Below, piece after piece: positions 1,418 to 25,478 of a stretch of 34,653 nt of DNA. The DNA comes from a virus, in the IMG/VR virus record IMGVR_UViG_3300032223_001401, positions 1-34,653 of that record. One strand, 5' to 3'. Below the pieces are notes generated by a model. It searched no databases. It was not told the DNA's origin and saw only the letters and a program-made list of their open reading frames with translations. The translations under genes were made by a program, and so were the position numbers. Each line of letters begins with the position of its first letter. Position 1 is the first letter of the stretch.

Positions 1418-3448
1418 ATGTCAGATTTCTTTAGTTTTAGGCTTCCAGAAGATTTTGTTGAAAAGTATAAAAATGTTGAAAGCCCTTTTGGCTTTAAAGA
1501 TGCAGCAGAGAATTCACTTGGAGAGATCACCTTCATCAGAACATATTCTAGAATGAAAGAAGATGGAACTAAAGAGCGCTGGCACGAAGTTTGTCGTCGA
1601 GTAATCGAGGGTATGTATTCAGTTCAAAAGAATCATGCTAAAGAAAACCGTTTACCTTGGAATGACTACAAGGCTCAGAAGTCAGCACAAGAGGCTTTTG
1701 ATAGAATGTTTAATTTAAAGTGGACTCCACCAGGACGTGGGATGTGGGCTTTTGGTACTCCTATGGTTATGGAAAAGAAAAATTCAGCAGCACTTCAAAA
1801 TTGTGCAATGGTTTCAACAAAGGACCTTGACAAAAATGATCCAGGGGCTTTGTTTGCTTGGGTTATGGATGCCCTTATGCTTGGTATTGGTGTAGGATTT
1901 GATACAGTTGGACAGGATAAGAATTTCTTAATCTATGCCCCAACAGAACCTGAACAGGTGTTTGAAATTCCAGACACTCGTGAAGGCTGGGTCGAGTCAG
2001 TTAGAATTCTTATCAATTCCTATTTAAGAGCAAATCAAAGTATTCAAAAGTTTAACTACGACCTCATTAGACCCCTTGGTTCGGCCATTAAGGGCTTTGG
2101 GGGCGTAGCATCAGGTCCAGCACCTCTTATTAAGTTGCATGACCAGATAGACCGTGTAATAGGCTCCAGAGCAGGGGAAACGCTAGATTCTCGTGCCATT
2201 GTAGATTTAGTAAATCTTATTGGTACTTGCGTAGTATCAGGCAACGTTCGCAGATCCGCAACTCTTGCCTTGGGGAGTGAGGGGGATGAAACATTCATGA
2301 ACTTAAAGAATTCAGAAATGTTCCCAGAGCGTAACTCATTTGATTCAGATAATCCAGGATGGGCATGGATGTCTAATAATTCTATTTCAGCAGAAGTAGG
2401 AACAAAGTATGAAGACTATGTAGATTTAATTACAGAAAATGGAGAACCAGGTTTTATCTGGCTTGACGTTGCTCGTAATTATGGCAGACTAAAGGATGCG
2501 CCAGATGGAAAAGACTATCGTGTGATGGGCTTTAATCCATGTGCGGAGCAGCCATTAGAGTCTTACGAATTATGTACACTTGTAGAAGTGCATTTAAATC
2601 GTCATGATTCTAAGGAGGACTTCCTGCGTACCCTAAAGTTTGCATACTTATATGGAAAAACTGTAACTCTTGTTCCAACACATTGGCAACAGACAAACGG
2701 AATTATGCAACGTAATCGTCGTATTGGTACATCGCTCACAGGCATTGCATCTTTTGCAGATCTAAAGGGCTTGCCAACAGTTCGTGAATGGATGGATGAG
2801 GGATATAACAAAATTCGTCATTACGACAATCAGTATTCTGAATGGCTATGTGTTCGTGAATCAATTCGTGTAACAACAATCAAGCCATCAGGATCAGTTT
2901 CAATTCTTTCTGGTGCAACTCCTGGAGTTCACTGGGGTCCTGGAGGAGAGTTCTTCCTTCGTGCTATTCGTTTTGGAAATACAGATCCAATGGTTTATTT
3001 GTTTAAAGCAGCGGGATACAAGATTGAAGACGATGTAGTGTCAGCAAATACATCCGTAGTATATTTTCCAATTAAGTCAGGTCATCCAAGATCTGAAAAA
3101 GATGTTACTTTATTTGAGAAAATTGCTCTTGCAGCAACTGCTCAGAAGTACTGGTCTGATAATGGGGTTTCTGTAACACTTTCATTTGACAAGGAAACAG
3201 AGTCAAAACATGTTGTTCCAGCATTACATATGTACGAGGGACAATTAAAGGCAGTATCATTCCTTCCTATGGGAAATACTATTTATCCACAGCAGCCATA
3301 CACTCAGATTACTGAAGAAGAATATAATGGATATGTAGGAAAATTAAAGCATATTGATTTTGGTGCAATTTATGACGGTGTTGATAATTTAGAGGCATCA
3401 GGAGAAGCATATTGCACAACTGATTATTGCGAAATTAAGGTCGGATAA
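1418..3448 (+). CDS. nrdJ: Class II (adenosylcobalamin-dependent) ribonucleoside-triphosphate reductase
   Basis: This 676-residue enzyme reduces ribonucleoside triphosphates to deoxynucleotides for phage DNA synthesis, using coenzyme B12 to generate a cysteine thiyl radical. The ten-stranded barrel signatures are clear: LQNCAM with Cys129, GFGGVASGPAPL at 227-238, GNVRRSATLALG, the catalytic loop FNPCAEQPLESYELCT (Cys375 radical cysteine, Glu377, Cys386 as partner of Cys129), and TTIKPSGSVSILSGATPGVH at about 486-505. The tail ends in CTTDYCEIKVG, with Cys666 and Cys671 as the likely shuttle pair regenerated by thioredoxin or glutaredoxin. The length is slightly below the roughly 740 residues of the monomeric lactobacillar enzyme. 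The start is supported by GAAAGGA about 10 bases upstream and a promoter before that. Codon use (CGT arginine, many C-ending codons) is richer in GC than its neighbours. It joins the next gene by TAATG. Confidence 0.95.
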   Translation: MSDFFSFRLPEDFVEKYKNVESPFGFKDAAENSLGEITFIRTYSRMKEDGTKERWHEVCRRVIEGMYSVQKNHAKENRLPWNDYKAQKSAQEAFDRMFNLKWTPPGRGMWAFGTPMVMEKKNSAALQNCAMVSTKDLDKNDPGALFAWVMDALMLGIGVGFDTVGQDKNFLIYAPTEPEQVFEIPDTREGWVESVRILINSYLRANQSIQKFNYDLIRPLGSAIKGFGGVASGPAPLIKLHDQIDRVIGSRAGETLDSRAIVDLVNLIGTCVVSGNVRRSATLALGSEGDETFMNLKNSEMFPERNSFDSDNPGWAWMSNNSISAEVGTKYEDYVDLITENGEPGFIWLDVARNYGRLKDAPDGKDYRVMGFNPCAEQPLESYELCTLVEVHLNRHDSKEDFLRTLKFAYLYGKTVTLVPTHWQQTNGIMQRNRRIGTSLTGIASFADLKGLPTVREWMDEGYNKIRHYDNQYSEWLCVRESIRVTTIKPSGSVSILSGATPGVHWGPGGEFFLRAIRFGNTDPMVYLFKAAGYKIEDDVVSANTSVVYFPIKSGHPRSEKDVTLFEKIALAATAQKYWSDNGVSVTLSFDKETESKHVVPALHMYEGQLKAVSFLPMGNTIYPQQPYTQITEEEYNGYVGKLKHIDFGAIYDGVDNLEASGEAYCTTDYCEIKVG

Positions 3449-15524: not shown

Positions 15525-15547
15525 CTATAGAAAAAGAGGTGGAACAA

Positions 15548-16174
15548 ATGGCAAATTATACTAGAGGTTCTAGTAACAACATCATCGTAGGTGCAGCAGC
15601 GCTGTTTACATACGAAGGTGGAACACTTGCAGATACAGATCTTCCAGCATACGTAAGTGGAACATCATACAAGGATACCCTTGAAAATGATGAAGATTTT
15701 CGTAACGTTGGATACACATCAAATGGTTTAGAACTAATGTTCCAACCTGACTTCGCAGAAGTTAAGGTTGACCAAGTACTTGATGCTGCTAAGTTGTTCA
15801 AGCAGGGAATGAAAGTTAATCTTAAGACATCATTCGCTGAAGCAACACTTGAAAATCTTCTCTTTGCTCTCGCAGGCAAGGATTCAGATTTAACAACTGT
15901 TTCAAACAACCCAACACTTAAGATGTCTGCAGGAGACATTGGCGAATGCCCAGTCGAACGTGGTCTTATTGCAGTTGGTCCTGGTACAGGTGACTGTGCA
16001 GAAGGATCTAACTTGGAAAGAATTTATGCAGCATACCGTGCACTATCAATCGATAGCGTAACAGTATCAGCAAAGAGAGATGCAGCAACAATGTTTGACG
16101 TATCTTTCCGTCTTCTTCCAAACGATAGTGCTTCTTATGGTAAGATCGTTGATCGCACCGTAACACCTGCATAA
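15548..16174 (+). CDS. Major tail tube protein
   Basis: This 208-residue protein starts at ATG 15548, five bases after AGAGGTGG; the in-frame GTG at 15539 is part of that binding site and is rejected as a start. The sequence is beta-rich: NNIIVGAAALFTYEGG, then FRNVGYTSNGLELMFQPDFA, KTSFAEATLENLLFALAGKD, and a closing VTVSAKRDAATMFDVSFRLL, a pattern of the tail-tube/gpV-like fold that stacks in hexamers. It sits between tail terminator and tail chaperones, has its own promoter, host-like codons (C-ending, CGT) and a strong terminator right behind it. All this fits a highly expressed structural protein. Confidence 0.85.
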   Translation: MANYTRGSSNNIIVGAAALFTYEGGTLADTDLPAYVSGTSYKDTLENDEDFRNVGYTSNGLELMFQPDFAEVKVDQVLDAAKLFKQGMKVNLKTSFAEATLENLLFALAGKDSDLTTVSNNPTLKMSAGDIGECPVERGLIAVGPGTGDCAEGSNLERIYAAYRALSIDSVTVSAKRDAATMFDVSFRLLPNDSASYGKIVDRTVTPA

Positions 16175-16194
16175 TATAACTTAATATATAGAAG

Positions 16195-16224
16195 CCCAAC
16201 CCTTCGGGGTTGGGTTTTCTTTTT
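16195..16224 (+). terminator. Strong intrinsic terminator after the tail tube gene
   Basis: CCCAACCC (16195-16202), loop TTCG, GGGTTGGG (16207-16214), followed by TTTTCTTTTT (16215-16224). This is a perfect 8-bp stem with a UUCG tetraloop and a strong U tract, 20 bases after the tube stop codon. Confidence 0.93.
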
Positions 16225-16226
16225 GG

Positions 16227-16232
16227 TATACT
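16227..16232 (+). promoter_or_regulatory. Start-proximal -10 box, leaderless-type promoter
   Basis: GGTATACT ends at 16232, exactly six bases (TATATA) before ATG 16239, and only two bases after the terminator U tract. The normal -10 to start distance puts +1 on the A of the ATG. There is no Shine-Dalgarno and no recognisable -35, which would fall within the terminator stem. This is the clearest leaderless-type start in the window. Confidence 0.65.
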
Positions 16233-16238
16233 TATATA

Positions 16239-16919
16239 ATGGCTACAAAAATATATGAAGAACATGAATTGTTTTTAATTGATGGTACAAAAATAATAGT
16301 TTCGCCTTTAAAAATTAAATATCTACATGAACTAATGGAGACATTTGCTGCTATTAATAAATCTACCCAAGATTTTGAGGCCGTAGCAATTTTAGTTGAA
16401 TGCACTAGAATTGCAATGAAACAATTTAGGCCAGAACTATCAGAGTCAATTGAAAAAATAGAAGATTCATTTGACCTTCCAACTATTTATAACATATTAG
16501 ATTATTGTGCTGGTATTAAAATTAATGCAAAAAAAGAAGAGCCAGTAAAACAGCAAGCGGTTGAATCTGGTCAAACATGGGCTGATCTAGATTTAGTAAA
16601 ATTAGAAACAGAAGTATTTTTAATGGGGTCATGGAAAAATTATTATGAGTTAGAAGTGTCAATGTCTATGCCAGAAATATTACAAACCATTTCAACAAAA
16701 AGAGAATTAGACCATATGGAAAAAAAGTTTTTGGCAGCCATGCAGGGTGTGGATATTGACAAGGACACTCAAGAATCAAATAAATGGGAAGAAATGAAAG
16801 AAAGAATTTTGTACAAAGGAAAAAGTGCAAAAGATATTACTTCACTTACTGGACAAAGGGCTGTAGATGCTGGTTTTGGAATTGGCAATGGTCTAGATTA
16901 TGAAGTAATAAATGACTAA
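16239..16919 (+). CDS. Tail assembly chaperone, long form (gpGT-like)
   Basis: This 226-residue protein has two parts. Residues 1-95 (YEEHELFLIDGTKIIVSPLK, then VECTRIAMKQFRPEL and FDLPTIYNIL) match the whole of the 106-residue protein encoded next, at about 40% identity by hand alignment. Residues about 105-226 are an extra domain (GQTWADLDLVKLETEVFLMG, then KNYYELEVSMSMPEILQTIS, and a charged C-terminus). Siphoviruses usually make a short chaperone and a frameshifted long form from one locus; here the long form is a continuous gene of its own. It would bind the tape measure protein and recruit tube subunits during tail assembly. It starts without a Shine-Dalgarno directly after a -10 box and uses AT-rich codons. 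Confidence 0.75.
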   Translation: MATKIYEEHELFLIDGTKIIVSPLKIKYLHELMETFAAINKSTQDFEAVAILVECTRIAMKQFRPELSESIEKIEDSFDLPTIYNILDYCAGIKINAKKEEPVKQQAVESGQTWADLDLVKLETEVFLMGSWKNYYELEVSMSMPEILQTISTKRELDHMEKKFLAAMQGVDIDKDTQESNKWEEMKERILYKGKSAKDITSLTGQRAVDAGFGIGNGLDYEVIND

Positions 16920-16934
16920 AAAAAGCATTTTTTA

Positions 16935-16965
16935 TGCTATAATTAACATAACCTTTAAAGGAGGA
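16935..16965 (+). promoter_or_regulatory. Extended -10 promoter and Shine-Dalgarno of the short chaperone
   Basis: TGCTATAAT (16935-16943) is an extended -10 box. AAAGGAGG (16958-16965) follows, about four bases before ATG 16970. The leader would be about 20 bases. A short hairpin, AGCAT-TTTTT-ATGCT (16924-16938), overlaps the box and is too weak to be a convincing terminator. Confidence 0.6.
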
Positions 16966-16969
16966 ACAA

Positions 16970-17290
16970 ATGGCAACAACTGTTCATGAAGAAAAGACAG
17001 TTACATTAATAGACGGAACTAAGGTCTCTATTAGACCTTTAAAAATTTCATTACTTCGTTCTTTTATGAAGAAGTTTGAAGGCGTACAAGCAGTAGCAGA
17101 AGATAACGAAAAGTCAATTAACATTCTTATGGAATGCGTTCAAATTGCAATGAAGCAGTACAAGCCAGAGATTGCAGAAGATTTGGCAACGTTAGAAGAC
17201 AATATGGATCTTCCAACGGTTTATAAGATCATTGAGGAAGCCTCTGGAGTTAATCTTGCAGAGACATCAATTCTTAATGCTCAACCATAA
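16970..17290 (+). CDS. Tail assembly chaperone, short form (gpG-like)
   Basis: This 106-residue protein begins MATTVHEEKTVTLIDGTKVS and shares LIDGTK, PLKI, ILMEC/ILVEC, IAMKQ and DLPT.Y with the first 95 residues of the preceding gene, so the two are paralogs. It corresponds to the short chaperone that coats the tape measure in excess. It has its own extended -10 promoter, a strong AAAGGAGG and more host-like codons (AAG, GAG, CGT), consistent with higher output than the long form. Only 25 bases separate its stop from the tape measure start, and no slippery heptamer is seen near its end, so it cannot be extended by frameshifting into a long form. Confidence 0.78.
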   Translation: MATTVHEEKTVTLIDGTKVSIRPLKISLLRSFMKKFEGVQAVAEDNEKSINILMECVQIAMKQYKPEIAEDLATLEDNMDLPTVYKIIEEASGVNLAETSILNAQP

Positions 17291-17315: not shown

Positions 17316-20300
17316 ATGGCTGATGTTCAGTCCAACATCAAGGTCAGTATTGACACCAGTGAGGCACTTGCTCAACTTAAATTGTTGCAGCGAGAAATAT
17401 CAGCCTTTCATTCCTCAATGGCAAAAACAGGTGCAGCAGGCACCGCAGTTTCTGCCAACATGCAACAAAATCTTTTAAATTCAATTAATAGTAGTGGCAA
17501 ATTTTATGCTGAGATGACTCGCATAAAAACTACAACAGAAGCATTTAGTACAGCACTTGCAAAAAATCAATTTTCAATGAAAGAATACTTCCGTTATGCG
17601 GGAGCAGCAACACAAACATTTGGAAAATTGTTTGCACAAGAACATGAAACAATAAATAAAGTTGCAAGAGAAAATGTAAAAACTTTACAAACACAATACA
17701 TTAAACTCGGACGTGATGCCAACGGTGCCCTTCAGGGAATCTCTGTAAGACCTCTATCTCTTGATATGAATAATCTGCAAACACAGACTGCACTTGCTGC
17801 ACAAAAGCAAGCACTTTTAAATCAGTTACTTCGTCAAGGATCTACTAATCTTTTAAACTTTGGTAAAAATACACAATGGGCTGGTCGTCAGTTGATGGTA
17901 GGCTTTACTGTTCCACTTATGTATTTTGGATCAGTTGCTGGTAAAACATTTATGCAACTTGAAGAGCAAGCAATTAGGTTTAAGCGTGTTTATGGAGACA
18001 TGTTTACTTCTAATGCAGATACAAATAAAGCATTAAAAGATGTACAAAATATTGCTAATCAATTTACTCAATATGGAGTAGCCGTAGCAGATACCATGAG
18101 TATGGCAGCCGATGTTGCAGCAACAGGCAAAATGGGTGCAGATCTTATGGCTCAAGTTACCAATGCAAATAAACTCGCAGTGCTTGGCGGTATCGATCAA
18201 AAGAAATCTTTAGATACTATTATTTCTTTAACATCTACTTTTGGTATTGCTACTAATGATTTATCTAAAAATATTGACTTTTTAAATGCTGTAGAAAACC
18301 AAACAATTTTAAATATTGATGACCTAACAACAGCAATTCCAAAGGCTGCACCAGTTGTAAAACAATTAGGTGGAAATGTTCAAGATCTTGCATTCTTTAT
18401 GACAGCAATGCGTGAAGGTGGAATTGATGCAGCCCAAGGTGCAAACGCAATTAAATCAGCATTAGCATCAATGATTAATCCAACTAAAGCAGCAAAAGAC
18501 ATGCTTGGTGGTTTTGGCATTGATGTAGTTGGACTTGTAAATGCTGATAAGGGTAATGTTAAAAAGATGGTGCTTGATTTAGCATCTGCATTTAATACAT
18601 TAGACCCTATGAATCGTGCTAAAGCAATTGAAGCAATGTTTGGTAAATTCCAGTTTGCTCGTGTATCTACATTAATGCAAAATGTAATTAAAGAAGGATC
18701 TCAAGCACAAACTGTTTTAGGATTAACAAAAGCAACTACTGAAGAACTTGCAATCTTATCTGAAAGAGAATTAAAGAAAGTTTCAGATTCTCCAATGTAT
18801 AAATTTAAAAAACAGGTACAAGATTTAAAAACAGCCATTGCCCCAATTGGTGGAGAATTTATTAAAGCACTTACACCAGTATTAAAGTTTTTTGGTGGAA
18901 TATTTGAAAAATTTAATAACCTAAGTGATGGCTCAAAACACTTTATTGTTATGCTTACAACCATTCTTGCAGGTATTGGTCCATTAGTTCTTATGTCTTT
19001 TGGTTTGCTTGCTAACGGTGTAGCAAATATTATTAAACTTTTTGTTGGAGTAAAATCATTATTTAATGGTGTTGGTAAATCTTCTGCTGGTCTTGGTGAA
19101 CAGACTAACTATTTAACTCAACAACAAATGGAAAATGCTGCATCAGCAGCGTCACTTGATCAAGCACATCAAAGATTAGAACAAAGATTTACTGCAGAAG
19201 CAGAAGCAATTAAATTATTAGTTTTATCTTATGAGCAAGCAATTGCAGCACAAAGAATGTTTGCAATGTCACCTATGCCAACAGGAATGCGACCAGGAAT
19301 TAAACTTGCAACTGGCGGAATCATTTCAGGACCAGGAACTGGTACATCAGACTCAATACCAGCAATGCTTTCAAATGGTGAAGCAGTTGTTCCAGCAGAA
19401 AATGTAAAAAAGTTTCCAGAGTTAACATCTGGTTTGGTGTCTGGCAATATTCCTGGTTTTGCTGAAGGCTATTCTCCAGGAGGATATCCACAGTATAGAG
19501 CAATAGCAAATCGTGGTGTTATGCAAGAAGTCATTAGAAGAAATCAAGAGTTTGCAGCATCACAGGCTGCTGCTGCCTCCGCTGCTGCTGCTAAAATGTC
19601 TGCTGAAACTGCAATGATAGCAGTAAAAACTTCTTCAGTAGGAAGACAACTTGGTAATATTGGTGTTGGATCAAATTCTTTTGCTTTTTCAAATCTTGCA
19701 AATAAAAATACTAGCGTTAAGATTCAAGAGTTAATTAATAAAACTACAGGACAAATTGATGAAAGCATAGTAGCAGCATTAACTAAACTTCAATCTGAAA
19801 CAAAAGTTACTGTTGTAAAATTTAAAGAAGAAGTTGCTGCTCAAGCAAAGGCTCTTGGTCAATCTGTTCCAGCAGATCTCATGCTTTCAAGAAGCCAATC
19901 TAGAGTAAGAACAACAAGATATAGTGCACCATCTGGGTTAGGAAGCGTAAGAGATCAACTTATTATTGAGCGTGGTTTTGTTGCAGCAAATGCAGAACTT
20001 GAAAGGGCTGAAACATCTGCAAGAGCAATGGCAACAACTTTATCTGATCTAGGTTTTTCATCAAAACAAATTGATGCTGCAATACAACTAGATCGTTCTC
20101 ATATGGTTGCAATGTCAAATAATGCTAAGAAATTATCAGAAGCATGGCATTCAAGTTTATGGATGACTCAAACTTCTGGAGAAAATAATGGTATTGCAAA
20201 CTCTTTAGCAATGTCTGCAAAAAATAGAAAAATTTATGAAAATGCATTAAAAGAGTTAGGTGTTGATACAGAAACACAAGCAGCATTAATGTCAAAAATA

Positions 20301-23300
20301 AATCAAAACATTGGTTTAACAGAAAAAGAATTATTTATACAAGGAAATGTTTTAAGAAAGATTGCTGATGATGCTGCTATTGGACTAATTTCTGCAAAAG
20401 AAATATCTCCTAAATTTGCAGCATATGCTAAAGCAGTTGCCGATGGTGCAGATGCTAGATTGATAATGGCACAAGAACAAGGAATAGCCTTAGAAAATGC
20501 AACCATTAGAACAACTGAAGAAGTTTCAGCAAGAGTCGCTAAATTAGCAGCAGCGCTACCTGAAGGTGCAGCAGAATCTCTTGCAGTAGCATCACCATCT
20601 AGAAAAATGCGAACAATTGGTGAGCAGGGTGGAGAAGGATTAATTGTTGGAGCAAAAGAAGCACTTGCAAACTCTCAAGCAGTTGGAAGACAACTTGGTG
20701 CATCTGCAGTACCAATGCCAGCGGGATCGCAAGCAAGAAATGCAGTAGCACTTTATGGAACAGGTCCAGTAGATGCTGAAGCAAAATCTGTACGTAGACA
20801 ACTTGAAACTGTGGCAAAGCGTCAACTTGCCGAATCAAAAATACAATTAGCATTAGATGAAAAAATTTCTCAATCAAAACAGCAATTATATGGAACCACT
20901 GGTCAAATTACGCAAGATATGCGTACACAAAGAAGATTGGCTGAATCACAAGCAAAAGCCCTACTTGTTGCACAACGTGAAAGAATGTTAGCAGAAGAAG
21001 AGTTAGCAACACAAACCAAGAGTAATGGCTTTATTTCTAATATGCTTGAAAAATTAAAACAAAAAGCATTACGAGATAGAGCAGTTGCAGAAGAAGGTGC
21101 AGCAAGAGGTGGCATGGGTGGCAAACTTATGGGTGTTTCTATGCTTGCTATGGCTGGCTCAATGCTTCCTGGAGCACTTGGACAATTATCTCAAAAAATT
21201 ATGATGGCAACAATGGCTATGGCAGCCTTTGAACAAATAATGCCAATGATGACTACGCCAGTAGGTGCTGCTGTAACTGCTTTTGTTGCAATAGGTGCTG
21301 CTGTATGGAAATTAAGATCAGAATTTGATTCTACTCGTGCATCAGTAATGAAGTTGCATGAATCAATAGGTGCTTCAACTAATTCATTAAGACAACTATC
21401 TGTTGGCGCTGGCAAAGTAACTGCAGGTGAAGCAATGGACAGAGCAAGAGCAAATGCTTTACAGCCTTATAATGTTCAAAGCGGAAAATCTACATATGGT
21501 GAATCGTTTGTTCAGTCTGAAAATGGAAAAGCAACATTAAAAAATCTTCAAGGATTAATGGTACAAAATGGAAAGGTTATTGCAGGAGGATCTGATGCTG
21601 CAGCACAATCTTTAACAAGTCAATTAATGGCAGCAGTAACATCTGGTGCACTTACAAAAGCACAGGCAGACTCTATTGCTGCAAATATGGCTGTAAAACT
21701 TGGAGATGCTGGATTAGGAATTAAGATTCGTGCAAAACTAGATAGCGTTCTTGGACCAAATGGGGAAAACCTTCTTACTGATCCTCTTGAAATAAGACTA
21801 AAAGTTATGCAAAATCAACAAAATTCTGCTAACCAAGCAACAAGAACTTTAAATAATAATAAAATTGGTGGCTTCATGTCTACCAAAATTGCAACAACTG
21901 GATCAATTGCTGCAAGTGCTGGAGCAGGTGCACTTACTGGTGCAATTATTGGAGGATCGATTCCAATACTTGGAGAGACTGGAGTTGGTGAAGCAATCGG
22001 TGCAGTTGTAGGAACAATTGTTGGTAGCATTGGTGGATATTTTAAAAATCGTGCAAATAATAAAAAGATGGCTGCACTTGCTGGTGCTGCAGTTGCAGAG
22101 CAAACCATGGCTTTGCAACAAAATAAAGAACAGTTAGATTCTTTAGATTTGTACTATCAAAAAAAGGTAGATGAACTTAAGATTCAAGGACAACTTGTAA
22201 AAGCAGAAGAAGCACAAACACGTTGGACAACAGAAAGAAATAAGTTAGTTAAAGAGGCTGCTGGCTATAATAAAACCATCATTGATCAATACAATCAAGC
22301 GGGTGGCAATCAAGAGGCACTTCTTAATGGTGCAAAAAATGCAGTAAAGGATAAATGGAAAGGCACAAACTCTGCAGCCTTTGTTGATGCTGCACAAAAC
22401 ATGCTTGGAGACGCAAGATCAAATGGTGGTCTTAATAGCGGTCAAGAATATCTTCTCACATTAAAAATGTCTACAGGAGAACTTGATCCACAACAGGTTC
22501 TGAATCTTATTGATCCAAATAATAACGAACAAACAACTAAGGTAATGGAAATTGTTACAAAGTTTGGATCTACAACAGCAAATCAAATGTCTCAAATTGC
22601 TGGAATGTTTGTTGATATAAATGGAAAGCCAATCGATTCTTTAAAAACTAAATTTATTGCAACAATAGCAGGAGCAAAAACTGATAAAGAAGCACAAGAT
22701 ATAATGAACCTTTATGCAGATGTAGCAAAGGGTGGCGGAGTATATTCTGCAGATGTAGCAATTTCATTTATTGATGGAAACAACACTCTTCGTGATCAAT
22801 TAATAAAAGACTTTAAGAGTTTAGAAGATGCTGTTGATAAAGGTGTAAATATTGATGTCATATATAATATTGATCAAAAACTTAAAGGAAATATTGATGA
22901 AACATATTTTAAGAATTTATCTAAAGATGATAAAAAGAAGTATCTTAAAACTGTTGAAACATTGGTTAATATTCCAGCAGCAAAAATTACAGGTTCTGCT
23001 TCATATATAAAATGGTTAGGTGAATCTGGTAAGTATGGAGGAAAAGATTTTAAAGGTAAAGAATCTGATGTTAAATTAATTTCAAGATATATAGAAGATA
23101 TGGCATATGATGTTACTAAGACTGGAGATCAGTCTACTGCTCTTCCACCAGGAGCATCTGGTTCAGGATCTACAAATACACCAACCGCATCCCCATTAGA
23201 TGATCTTATTAAAAAAGTAAGGGATTTAAGAAAAGATCAACAAGGATTAACAGTTGGTTGGGATGCTTCAATGAAGGCTATGAATGCTTTATTTACAAAT

Positions 23301-25478
23301 GCAAAGGGCAAAGTTCAAAACTTAGTACCAACCAAAGGACAAAGTCCATTTAATGGAATGGAAAATCAATTAAGAAAACAAGGTCTTGCACAGGGTGGCA
23401 TTGATTTCCTAACTGGATTGAGTCCAGATGATTATGCCAAAGTTGGTTCAAAGTTTATTGAAATTGATAAAAAGACTGGAGCAATTAGATTAAAAAATGC
23501 ACAACAACTTAATGCTTTAATTAATAATATTGCTGTTGGAGAATTTGTTAATGCAAATGAAAAAATAATTACAAGTACAAGAAATCAAGATGTTGCCATT
23601 AAAAAATTAATTGGTGCTGGTATGTCTCTTGATAATGCTTATGCTGCAGTTTCTGATGAGGCTTTCGCTGCTGCAATTGCTACTGGAAAATTTGATGCAG
23701 CAACAATTAAAGCCATGGTATCTACAAAAAATCAAGCAGATTCTGCTGCAAAATTAGCGGAGCAATTAAAGGCTGCAAGAACATATTTTAATAATTTTAG
23801 CATTGAATTAACTGATCAAAAAACATATTCCCAACTTGCTGGGCAACTTAAAACAATGGGTATGGATGCCGATATGATTTCAAATATTCTATCTGATCCA
23901 AATGTTGCTAAAGGATTAATTGAAGAATTTAAAAATGGAGAAGTGACCGCACAAACCATTTTGGAAACTGTTCAAAAGATTAAAGACTTAACATTACAAA
24001 AAGCAATTACCGATATGCAGGCTGGAAATTATTCTGCTGCATTTCAGCCTGGATATGATGCTGCACAAAAAATGTTTGATATTCAACAAAGGTTATTAGA
24101 GCAGTCATATAGGCCTCTTTTAAAGATAGATCAGGATAGAATAGATGCTGCACAAAAATTAGCAGATGCCAAGCAAAAAGAAATTGATGCACAACAAAAA
24201 AATGTAGATATTGCTCAAGCCGAAGTAGATGCTGCAAATAAACTTATAGAAACACAAAATACTAGAAATGATAAATTAAATCACGATTTAACATTAATTG
24301 ATCATGCAACACAAGCAATTAACGATAAATATGATGCTCAAAAACAAGCATTACAAGAAATCGCATCAGTTAATGATTATATTATTGGTCAACAAGGAAA
24401 ACAATTAACCCTTGCAGATTCATTAACTCAGGGAGACATTGGTGCAGCAGCAAAGGCTGTACAAGATATGCGATCTGCATCTGCTACAAATGCTATTTCA
24501 GTTCAACAAAAAGCATTAGATGCAGCACAAGCAAATCAAATTGCAAACTTAAAAAATGATGAAGGTAAAACAAAACTTCAAATAGAACAAGAGCAATGGA
24601 CTATCTCAGAAACAATTTATGGAATTCAACAAAATCAATTAAAGGTTGCACAGTCTCATTTAGATGCAGCAAATGCACTCTTAACTACAAAACAAAATGA
24701 ACTTAAAGTCTTACAAGATAGCGTTACAAGTGCACAGGCAACCCTTGATGCTGACAAAGCAAGACTAGATACTGAAACACAAGCATTGACTGTTCTTGGT
24801 CAAACAAAACAGCAATGGGATGATATGAAATTAAAAATTGATGCAGCCCAATTAGCACAGGATGAACTTGCAACAACACAAATGGCAGCAGCATTAGCAA
24901 CTGCAAAACTTGTTGATAGCAAGTGGTCTGGAATTTTAGATTATTACAAACAATATAAAGATAAAACTGTAACTATTACAACATTAGTTCAAACTATATA
25001 CTCTGCAGTAAGTGCACCAGCACCTACCTCAACACCTGCACCATCTCCAATGGTTTCTTATAATCCAACTACTGGACTTTCTTACAACCCTAATGGTACT
25101 CCACCACCAGCAGCACCTGCTGCACCAACAGTTACTTCTGCAGATATAATTGCAGCAAGAAAAGCACAATATGGATATTTATCAAAAGGCGGAATTGTTC
25201 CAAAATATTTTGCTGTTGGTGGATATGCAAAGGGTACAGATACAGTCCCAGCAATGCTTACCCCAGGTGAATTTGTTATGAGTAAGTATGCGGTTAATAC
25301 TCATGGAGTAGATACTCTTAGCGCTATGAATAAGGGAGATTCTCCTGCCAACGCAGTGTATACTTATAACCTAAGTGTAAATGTTAAGTCTGATGCTAAT
25401 CCAAACGATATTGCTAGAGTAGTAATGACACAAATTAAACAAATAGATTCTCAAAGAGTTAGAGGGGTTGGTAAATAA
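17316..25478 (+). CDS. Tape measure protein
   Basis: This 2720-residue protein is by far the longest gene and follows the chaperones, as tape measures do. It sets tail length and runs through the tube. Residues about 188-480 match the phage-tail minor-protein/TP901 core (GRQLMVGFTVPLMYFGSVAG, then FFMTAMREGGIDAAQGANAI, MFGKFQFARVSTLM). Hydrophobic segments lie at about 540-580, 1266-1332 and 1521-1575 (glycine-rich), possible membrane-inserting parts. The tape-measure motifs GTSDSIPAMLSNGEAVVP (about residue 675), SPSRKMRTIGEQGGEGLIVG (about 1093) and GTDTVPAMLTPGEFVMS (about 2640) are present. Residues about 2250-2530 are a long heptad-like helix rich in Q, A, K and D. No peptidase or lysozyme motif was seen. 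The start follows AAAGAGGT by eight bases. Confidence 0.95.
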   Translation: MADVQSNIKVSIDTSEALAQLKLLQREISAFHSSMAKTGAAGTAVSANMQQNLLNSINSSGKFYAEMTRIKTTTEAFSTALAKNQFSMKEYFRYAGAATQTFGKLFAQEHETINKVARENVKTLQTQYIKLGRDANGALQGISVRPLSLDMNNLQTQTALAAQKQALLNQLLRQGSTNLLNFGKNTQWAGRQLMVGFTVPLMYFGSVAGKTFMQLEEQAIRFKRVYGDMFTSNADTNKALKDVQNIANQFTQYGVAVADTMSMAADVAATGKMGADLMAQVTNANKLAVLGGIDQKKSLDTIISLTSTFGIATNDLSKNIDFLNAVENQTILNIDDLTTAIPKAAPVVKQLGGNVQDLAFFMTAMREGGIDAAQGANAIKSALASMINPTKAAKDMLGGFGIDVVGLVNADKGNVKKMVLDLASAFNTLDPMNRAKAIEAMFGKFQFARVSTLMQNVIKEGSQAQTVLGLTKATTEELAILSERELKKVSDSPMYKFKKQVQDLKTAIAPIGGEFIKALTPVLKFFGGIFEKFNNLSDGSKHFIVMLTTILAGIGPLVLMSFGLLANGVANIIKLFVGVKSLFNGVGKSSAGLGEQTNYLTQQQMENAASAASLDQAHQRLEQRFTAEAEAIKLLVLSYEQAIAAQRMFAMSPMPTGMRPGIKLATGGIISGPGTGTSDSIPAMLSNGEAVVPAENVKKFPELTSGLVSGNIPGFAEGYSPGGYPQYRAIANRGVMQEVIRRNQEFAASQAAAASAAAAKMSAETAMIAVKTSSVGRQLGNIGVGSNSFAFSNLANKNTSVKIQELINKTTGQIDESIVAALTKLQSETKVTVVKFKEEVAAQAKALGQSVPADLMLSRSQSRVRTTRYSAPSGLGSVRDQLIIERGFVAANAELERAETSARAMATTLSDLGFSSKQIDAAIQLDRSHMVAMSNNAKKLSEAWHSSLWMTQTSGENNGIANSLAMSAKNRKIYENALKELGVDTETQAALMSKINQNIGLTEKELFIQGNVLRKIADDAAIGLISAKEISPKFAAYAKAVADGADARLIMAQEQGIALENATIRTTEEVSARVAKLAAALPEGAAESLAVASPSRKMRTIGEQGGEGLIVGAKEALANSQAVGRQLGASAVPMPAGSQARNAVALYGTGPVDAEAKSVRRQLETVAKRQLAESKIQLALDEKISQSKQQLYGTTGQITQDMRTQRRLAESQAKALLVAQRERMLAEEELATQTKSNGFISNMLEKLKQKALRDRAVAEEGAARGGMGGKLMGVSMLAMAGSMLPGALGQLSQKIMMATMAMAAFEQIMPMMTTPVGAAVTAFVAIGAAVWKLRSEFDSTRASVMKLHESIGASTNSLRQLSVGAGKVTAGEAMDRARANALQPYNVQSGKSTYGESFVQSENGKATLKNLQGLMVQNGKVIAGGSDAAAQSLTSQLMAAVTSGALTKAQADSIAANMAVKLGDAGLGIKIRAKLDSVLGPNGENLLTDPLEIRLKVMQNQQNSANQATRTLNNNKIGGFMSTKIATTGSIAASAGAGALTGAIIGGSIPILGETGVGEAIGAVVGTIVGSIGGYFKNRANNKKMAALAGAAVAEQTMALQQNKEQLDSLDLYYQKKVDELKIQGQLVKAEEAQTRWTTERNKLVKEAAGYNKTIIDQYNQAGGNQEALLNGAKNAVKDKWKGTNSAAFVDAAQNMLGDARSNGGLNSGQEYLLTLKMSTGELDPQQVLNLIDPNNNEQTTKVMEIVTKFGSTTANQMSQIAGMFVDINGKPIDSLKTKFIATIAGAKTDKEAQDIMNLYADVAKGGGVYSADVAISFIDGNNTLRDQLIKDFKSLEDAVDKGVNIDVIYNIDQKLKGNIDETYFKNLSKDDKKKYLKTVETLVNIPAAKITGSASYIKWLGESGKYGGKDFKGKESDVKLISRYIEDMAYDVTKTGDQSTALPPGASGSGSTNTPTASPLDDLIKKVRDLRKDQQGLTVGWDASMKAMNALFTNAKGKVQNLVPTKGQSPFNGMENQLRKQGLAQGGIDFLTGLSPDDYAKVGSKFIEIDKKTGAIRLKNAQQLNALINNIAVGEFVNANEKIITSTRNQDVAIKKLIGAGMSLDNAYAAVSDEAFAAAIATGKFDAATIKAMVSTKNQADSAAKLAEQLKAARTYFNNFSIELTDQKTYSQLAGQLKTMGMDADMISNILSDPNVAKGLIEEFKNGEVTAQTILETVQKIKDLTLQKAITDMQAGNYSAAFQPGYDAAQKMFDIQQRLLEQSYRPLLKIDQDRIDAAQKLADAKQKEIDAQQKNVDIAQAEVDAANKLIETQNTRNDKLNHDLTLIDHATQAINDKYDAQKQALQEIASVNDYIIGQQGKQLTLADSLTQGDIGAAAKAVQDMRSASATNAISVQQKALDAAQANQIANLKNDEGKTKLQIEQEQWTISETIYGIQQNQLKVAQSHLDAANALLTTKQNELKVLQDSVTSAQATLDADKARLDTETQALTVLGQTKQQWDDMKLKIDAAQLAQDELATTQMAAALATAKLVDSKWSGILDYYKQYKDKTVTITTLVQTIYSAVSAPAPTSTPAPSPMVSYNPTTGLSYNPNGTPPPAAPAAPTVTSADIIAARKAQYGYLSKGGIVPKYFAVGGYAKGTDTVPAMLTPGEFVMSKYAVNTHGVDTLSAMNKGDSPANAVYTYNLSVNVKSDANPNDIARVVMTQIKQIDSQRVRGVGK

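Follow-up and report, generated by a model that had tools for sequence, protein, structure and literature searches.

The locus described here is quite probably the tail assembly chaperone locus of a long-tailed phage, with one gene for each of two chaperones, and its sequence suggests that gene duplication and separate expression have replaced programmed frameshifting as the source of the two proteins. Frameshifting in tail chaperone genes is among the most widely conserved recoding events of tailed phages, and it is thought to have been retained because the ratio between the short form (G) and the long form (GT) is critical. Chaperones of the lambda type, gpG and gpGT, are reportedly made in this way through a programmed -1 frameshift (Xu, Hendrix, Duda 2004; reviewed in PMC5009743). 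On balance, we favour the view that the present phage lineage swapped programmed frameshifting for a duplication, which probably occurred once, and that the ratio would be kept by a leaderless, terminator-insulated and codon-poor long gene together with a Shine-Dalgarno-driven and codon-rich short gene.

The chaperone locus and its neighbours

The window, that is the whole stretch of DNA analysed, is a virus contig of 34.7 kb (34,653 nucleotides) with a GC content of 33%. Its virion genes follow the order portal, protease, capsid, major tail protein, chaperones and tape measure, and they resemble those of Streptomyces phages of the Stanwilliamsviridae. In the window as in its relatives, the chaperone genes sit between the gene for the major tail protein and that for the tape measure protein, the expected client of the chaperones (Table 1). 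The major tail protein, for which an alternative start would be the ATG at 15548 preceded by AGAGGTGG, is 45-47% identical to major tail proteins of Streptomyces phages (tblastn) and matches two PHROGs families, phrog_885 (major tail protein, E = 7.5e-6) and phrog_2175 (E = 1.1e-31). Elsewhere, the window carries a gene for a B12-dependent (class II) ribonucleotide reductase (1418-3448), with an extended -10 box (TGCTATACT) 5' of its start. Rfam and tRNA scans of the window gave no matches, and a scan of bacterial and archaeal genomes found no relative.

Table 1. Features of the chaperone locus (positions in the window)
Feature	Position	Strand	Remarks
Major tail protein gene	15539..16174	+	Upstream neighbour of GT
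Terminator-like hairpin (CCCAACCC/GGGTTGGG stem) and T run	16192..16224	+	Between major tail protein gene and GT
Extended -10 box TGGTATACT, predicted leaderless-type promoter of GT	16224..16232	+	6 nt 5' of the GT ATG
Long tail assembly chaperone GT, 226 aa	16239..16919	+	In-frame fusion of a G and a T domain
Extended -10 box TGCTATAAT, promoter-like element of short G	16935..16943	+	About 25 nt upstream
Shine-Dalgarno sequence AAAGGAGG of short G	16957..16964	+	
Short tail assembly chaperone G, 106 aa	16970..17290	+	Paralogue of the G domain of GT; stop at 17290
Tape measure protein gene	17316..25478	+	TIGR01760, E = 3.6e-20; starts 25 nt 3' of G; in-frame TGA just 5' of the ATG at 17316

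A previous reading of the sequence alone (hereafter the sequence-only reading) had proposed that the long and short chaperones are encoded by separate tandem genes and that the short protein is about 40% identical to the N-terminus of the long one. Coordinates, lengths and sequence features all agreed with this description, and BLASTP aligned the two proteins with 41 of 96 residues identical (43%) and 66 of 96 positive; the E-value of 1e-29 means that the resemblance is not due to chance. In GT, the G domain covers about residues 1-96 and the T domain extends from W114 onward. Among the PHROGs, phrog_10504 corresponds to the N-termini of both proteins (9e-21 and 6.9e-20) and phrog_10474 to the C-terminal part of GT; these are kept as separate families because the G and T of the isolates are annotated as separate ORFs. 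Annotated tail assembly chaperones of Streptomyces phages were recovered by tblastn with best E-values of about 1e-29 (GT) and 2e-15 (G). No Pfam or NCBIfam chaperone model scored above cut-off for GT or G, and PDB sequence searches with both profiles gave no relevant match.

A chaperone fold is possible for both proteins, with moderate support from structure models. The G domains of the two models (pLDDT of 73 for GT and 63 for G) have the same order of elements, two strands and then helices at matching positions. The sequence-only reading had considered that the two N-termini might turn out to have unrelated folds, which is at odds with both the sequence homology and this shared order of predicted secondary structure. 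The GT model matches the predicted GT of phage N15 (E = 1.7e-3, probability 0.99) and a frameshift chaperone of an Enterococcus phage. The best Foldseek match in the PDB had an E-value of 0.7, and the HK97 chaperone 2ob9 aligns over the whole domain with a Z score of 4.1, level with unrelated helical chains.

Two architectures among the relatives

Records of 127 Streptomyces and three Rhodococcus phages in INPHARED match the long protein, and several hundred stretches of IMG/VR were matched in scans that used the two proteins as well as alignments of G and of T. Profile classification of 316 loci, which are related sequences and hence not independent samples, separated two architectures: GT as one ORF followed by a second G (225 loci), and a change of frame between G and T (84 loci). 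The latter comprise 81 plain cases and three (L167, L168 and L186) that appeared exceptional at first sight, their G domain match being interrupted by an extra 30 residues or so. Seven other exceptions (L046, L095, L111, L154, L178, L184 and L249) are explained as loci cut at contig ends. As several loci stem from one contig, distinct sequences were counted as well. A scan with the T domain only, which carries no bias towards the extra G, gave 48 two-gene loci, 26 frameshift loci and two fused loci at a contig end (distinct loci).

Wherever the contig was long enough, neither a fused GT alone nor a frameshift locus with an extra G was ever seen. The homologue search suggested by the sequence-only reading has thus a simple outcome: relatives have either one frameshifted locus or two genes, never both. 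The frameshift architecture is exemplified by the Streptomyces phages Sham, Coruscant, Bartholomune and Beuffert, in whose records the stretch from the major tail gene to the tape measure gene holds G and T in different frames; in the Sham record, the chaperone is annotated as a joined frameshift CDS.

Slippery sites

T is in the -1 frame in all 63 distinct frameshift loci measured, with an overlap of 25-94 nt. An in-frame slippery heptamer of the type X XXY YYZ is present in 45 of 56 distinct frameshift ends (CCCAAAC in 28, CCCAAAT in 13 and GGGAAAC in four), and the 11 ends without one belong to Streptomyces phages of the Coruscant/Bartholomune kind and their near relatives. Two loci of this type (L099:2788-2845 and L100:2785-2845) show the -1 relation with no standard heptamer in the overlap, and have CCCGGAA at the corresponding place.

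The lambda-type signature, a T in the -1 frame together with a slippery heptamer, is not found in the two-gene loci, where the long gene reads from G into T without a change of frame. The sequence-only reading had held that the short gene cannot be extended by frameshifting, and this stands: its stop is followed by the tape measure ATG with the preceding in-frame TGA, there is no T frame downstream, and no T domain beyond the one in the long gene was found at the locus. A conserved slippery site in the short gene, which would have pointed the other way, is not apparent either, as the heptamer is absent from 133 of 142 distinct short-gene ends. We therefore rejected a frameshift out of the short gene.

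Frameshifting could in principle persist inside the long gene, if slippage on an A run at the G/T junction yielded additional short form, as in dnaX. The window junction does contain an A7 run (GCA AAA AAA GAA, near 16524-16532), from which the -1 frame reaches a TGA within about ten codons. However, the run lacks conservation: no heptamer stands at 129 of 145 distinct fused junctions and AAAAAAA occurs in three only, the linker between G and T is among the most variable parts of GT, and every such locus has a separate gene for the short form. Slippage within GT is accordingly a very improbable source of the short form, and a separate gene for it remains the preferred reading.

Start signals of the two genes

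The two chaperone genes are preceded by signals of different kinds. A hairpin similar to that of the window occurs 5' of GT in 120 of 132 distinct upstream sequences (0.5% of shuffles) and 5' of frameshift G in 48 of 55, and was never found 5' of short G among the distinct upstream sequences. GT starts with ATG in all 132 sequences, and a -10-like box lies close 5' of every GT start inspected. The best extended -10 is located 5-9 nt before the ATG in 123 of the 132 (exactly 6 nt in 68), and a Shine-Dalgarno match of at least 4 nt precedes GT in only 12% of them. A -10 box at this distance combined with a rare Shine-Dalgarno sequence is the sequence mark of leaderless genes, and GT is predicted to be a gene of this type.

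Short G has an extended -10 in 132 of 132 distinct sequences, mostly 23-37 nt from the start, and a Shine-Dalgarno match of at least 4 nt in 98.5% of 132 distinct loci. The single G of the frameshift relatives resembles it in this respect (Shine-Dalgarno in 96%). Among 24 representatives sharing less than 85% identity, a Shine-Dalgarno sequence was present before G in all 24 and before GT in none. The different starts noted in the sequence-only reading, a leaderless-type -10 for GT and an extended -10 with AAAGGAGG for G, are therefore present in the window, and their types are conserved across 132 distinct upstream sequences each.

Alternatively, the box before GT could be nothing but AT-rich sequence, GT being translated from a transcript that reads through from the major tail protein gene. 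The low GC content of the window would favour such an explanation, and so would the count of TGNTATANT over the whole window, which is not above chance (13 vs 11.8 expected); the case for a promoter consequently rests on position and on conservation across loci. Read-through appears unlikely, since the chance expectation for TANNNT is about 3% per position, far from the 123 of 132 sequences with the box at 5-9 nt, the terminator-like hairpin intervenes in 120 of 132, and a read-through transcript would offer no Shine-Dalgarno sequence at GT. We thus retain a leaderless-type promoter as the preferred interpretation of the box.

Three other gene starts in the window (3994, 7807 and 32416) have a -10-like box at most 10 nt from the ATG and no clear Shine-Dalgarno sequence, so this phage may often use leaderless starts. 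In one two-gene locus (L077:2222-3000), GT and G are separated by an inserted ORF that resembles a methyltransferase gene (motif VLELGCGSGYDT). The short G of this locus retains its own promoter box and Shine-Dalgarno sequence despite the insert, and GT and G accordingly look like separable units. In three frameshift relatives (L176, L180 and L197), a TATAAT-type box (TGCTATAAT, TGGTATAAT and TGTATAAT) is found just 5' of the tape measure gene, at the place occupied by short G in two-gene phages.

Codon usage

Codon usage also distinguishes the two genes. Scored against the phage's own capsid and major tail genes, codon adaptation in the window is 0.405 for GT, the lowest of 18 genes, vs 0.589 for G, and the fraction of lysine codons that are AAG is 0.09 in GT vs 0.89 in G; the codon contrast described in the sequence-only reading is thus real. 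It extends to the relatives: in 124 of 143 loci, each referred to its own major tail gene, short G is better adapted than the G domain of GT. Mean adaptation in two-gene loci is 0.62 for short G and 0.53 for the G domain of GT, and in frameshift relatives 0.62 for G and 0.52 for T. The G domain locked into GT has thus dropped to the codon level of T, which would be expected of a GT made in the smaller amount.

Origin and maintenance of the two genes

In the G tree, a single clade with a long branch unites the G domains of GT (support of 96, two poorly placed loci being left out), while the short-gene G domains adjoin those of frameshift loci. Many forks of the chaperone trees lack resolution. 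The first T and G trees hinted at extra changes, which we rejected because constrained trees had better likelihoods: holding the short-gene G together improved on the free search (p-AU 0.86), and so did holding the fused T together (p-AU 0.82). The trees fit one duplication followed by vertical descent. Two frameshift loci with the slippery sequence GGGAAAC (L176:2681-3351 and L180:2678-3342) had their T domains among the fused T in the first tree; this could possibly reflect recombination or reversion, but their placement is not firm and L176 is a long branch. As the root of the trees is inferred, so is the direction of change: in the T tree, the fused group is surrounded by frameshift loci on several branches, and chaperone frameshifting is widespread in tailed phages (PMC5009743), both of which point from frameshift to two genes.

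The long branch of the GT clade raises the alternative that the two proteins have divided their labour, the G domain of GT having diverged towards another client, with amounts not tuned as in lambda. This G domain is also less conserved than short G, relatives sharing 50-66% identity with the window protein vs 69-84% for short G. Nevertheless, faster change is likewise expected of a low-abundance protein. GT contains both domains at every locus, its G domain keeps the conserved G motifs in the alignment of relatives, and the median dN/dS of pairs 80-97% identical is 0.08 (GT) and 0.06 (G), so that both genes are under strong purifying selection. The opposite start and codon signals are, moreover, what a minor/major pair needs. 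We consider divided labour to be improbable, and continue to regard GT and G as the minor and major forms of one chaperone system.

The history would then be as follows. In the frameshifting ancestors, one gene would have given G and, via a -1 slip, GT. The chaperone gene was duplicated in this lineage, probably once; the upstream copy would have become a permanent in-frame GT, and the copy beside the tape measure gene would have kept G only. With its strong Shine-Dalgarno sequence and adapted codons, G would be made in excess and coat the tape measure protein, whereas GT, with its upstream terminator, leaderless start and poor codons, would be the less abundant form and would use its T domain to recruit the major tail protein. 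Transcription and translation initiation, aided by codon usage, would now determine the ratio that frameshift efficiency used to give. The suggestion of the sequence-only reading that promoter and ribosome-binding strength may set the G:GT ratio fits three separate sequence signatures.

A mutant of phage TP901-1 with a permanent G-T fusion produces non-infectious particles (PMC4493119). Fused GT alone should therefore fail, and the added G, present in every fused locus with enough flank, is the expected complement. Mycobacteria are able to translate leaderless mRNAs robustly (PMC8485053, PMC4633059), so a leaderless start alone does not mean low output, and transcription may matter more than initiation for the ratio. 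As no terminator was found between GT and G, the GT transcript could feed G too.

Comparison with known systems

In lambda, the tape measure protein is bound by many copies of G, the major tail protein is brought in through the T part of GT, and the ratio is about 30:1 (PMC5009743). The present locus has the same position between major tail protein and tape measure and the same combination of a short G with a long G-T form, and its chaperone family itself has frameshifting relatives. It differs from the lambda type in its in-frame G-T fusion and in having a second, paralogous gene, equipped with start signals of its own, for the short form. Phages Sham, Coruscant, Bartholomune and Beuffert of the Stanwilliamsviridae have the same gene order as the window and homologues of its G, T, major tail protein and portal, but a single chaperone locus with G and T in different frames.

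Separate genes for the two forms have been reported before. T4-like phages have a short gene and a long fusion gene, consisting of the short form and a downstream part, with no frameshift (Vladimirov, Gautam, Davidson 2022, Virology 566:9, as described in PMC10885494). As far as that description goes, the likeness with the GT and G of our 225 loci is one of arrangement. They are a different phage group, and here close relatives still frameshift, so that the exchange is visible; in the present clade, the two genes also carry opposite, conserved expression signals. The Microbacterium phages of cluster EA are described as having two chaperone ORFs with no evident frameshift and separate expression (PMC7302621); the passage on these ORFs does not mention a G domain of its own in the long ORF.

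Judging from these accounts, the principle of two genes was already known. Our literature search for leaderless starts or duplicated genes among tail chaperones turned up no description of the present arrangement. The novelty lies in its wide distribution, over a large clade akin to Streptomyces siphophages, in the direct contrast to relatives that frameshift, and in the paired, conserved expression signals that are opposite in the two genes. With a large clade devoid of frameshifting beside relatives that frameshift, sequence comparison can reveal how the exchange proceeded and what it required. For annotation, this cautions against assuming a frameshift whenever two chaperone genes are present. 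It also leads to a testable claim, namely that the ratio of the two forms can move from frameshift efficiency to separate transcription and initiation; if this is true, then a ratio that lambda-type phages obtain by recoding would here have been converted into one of promoters and initiation.
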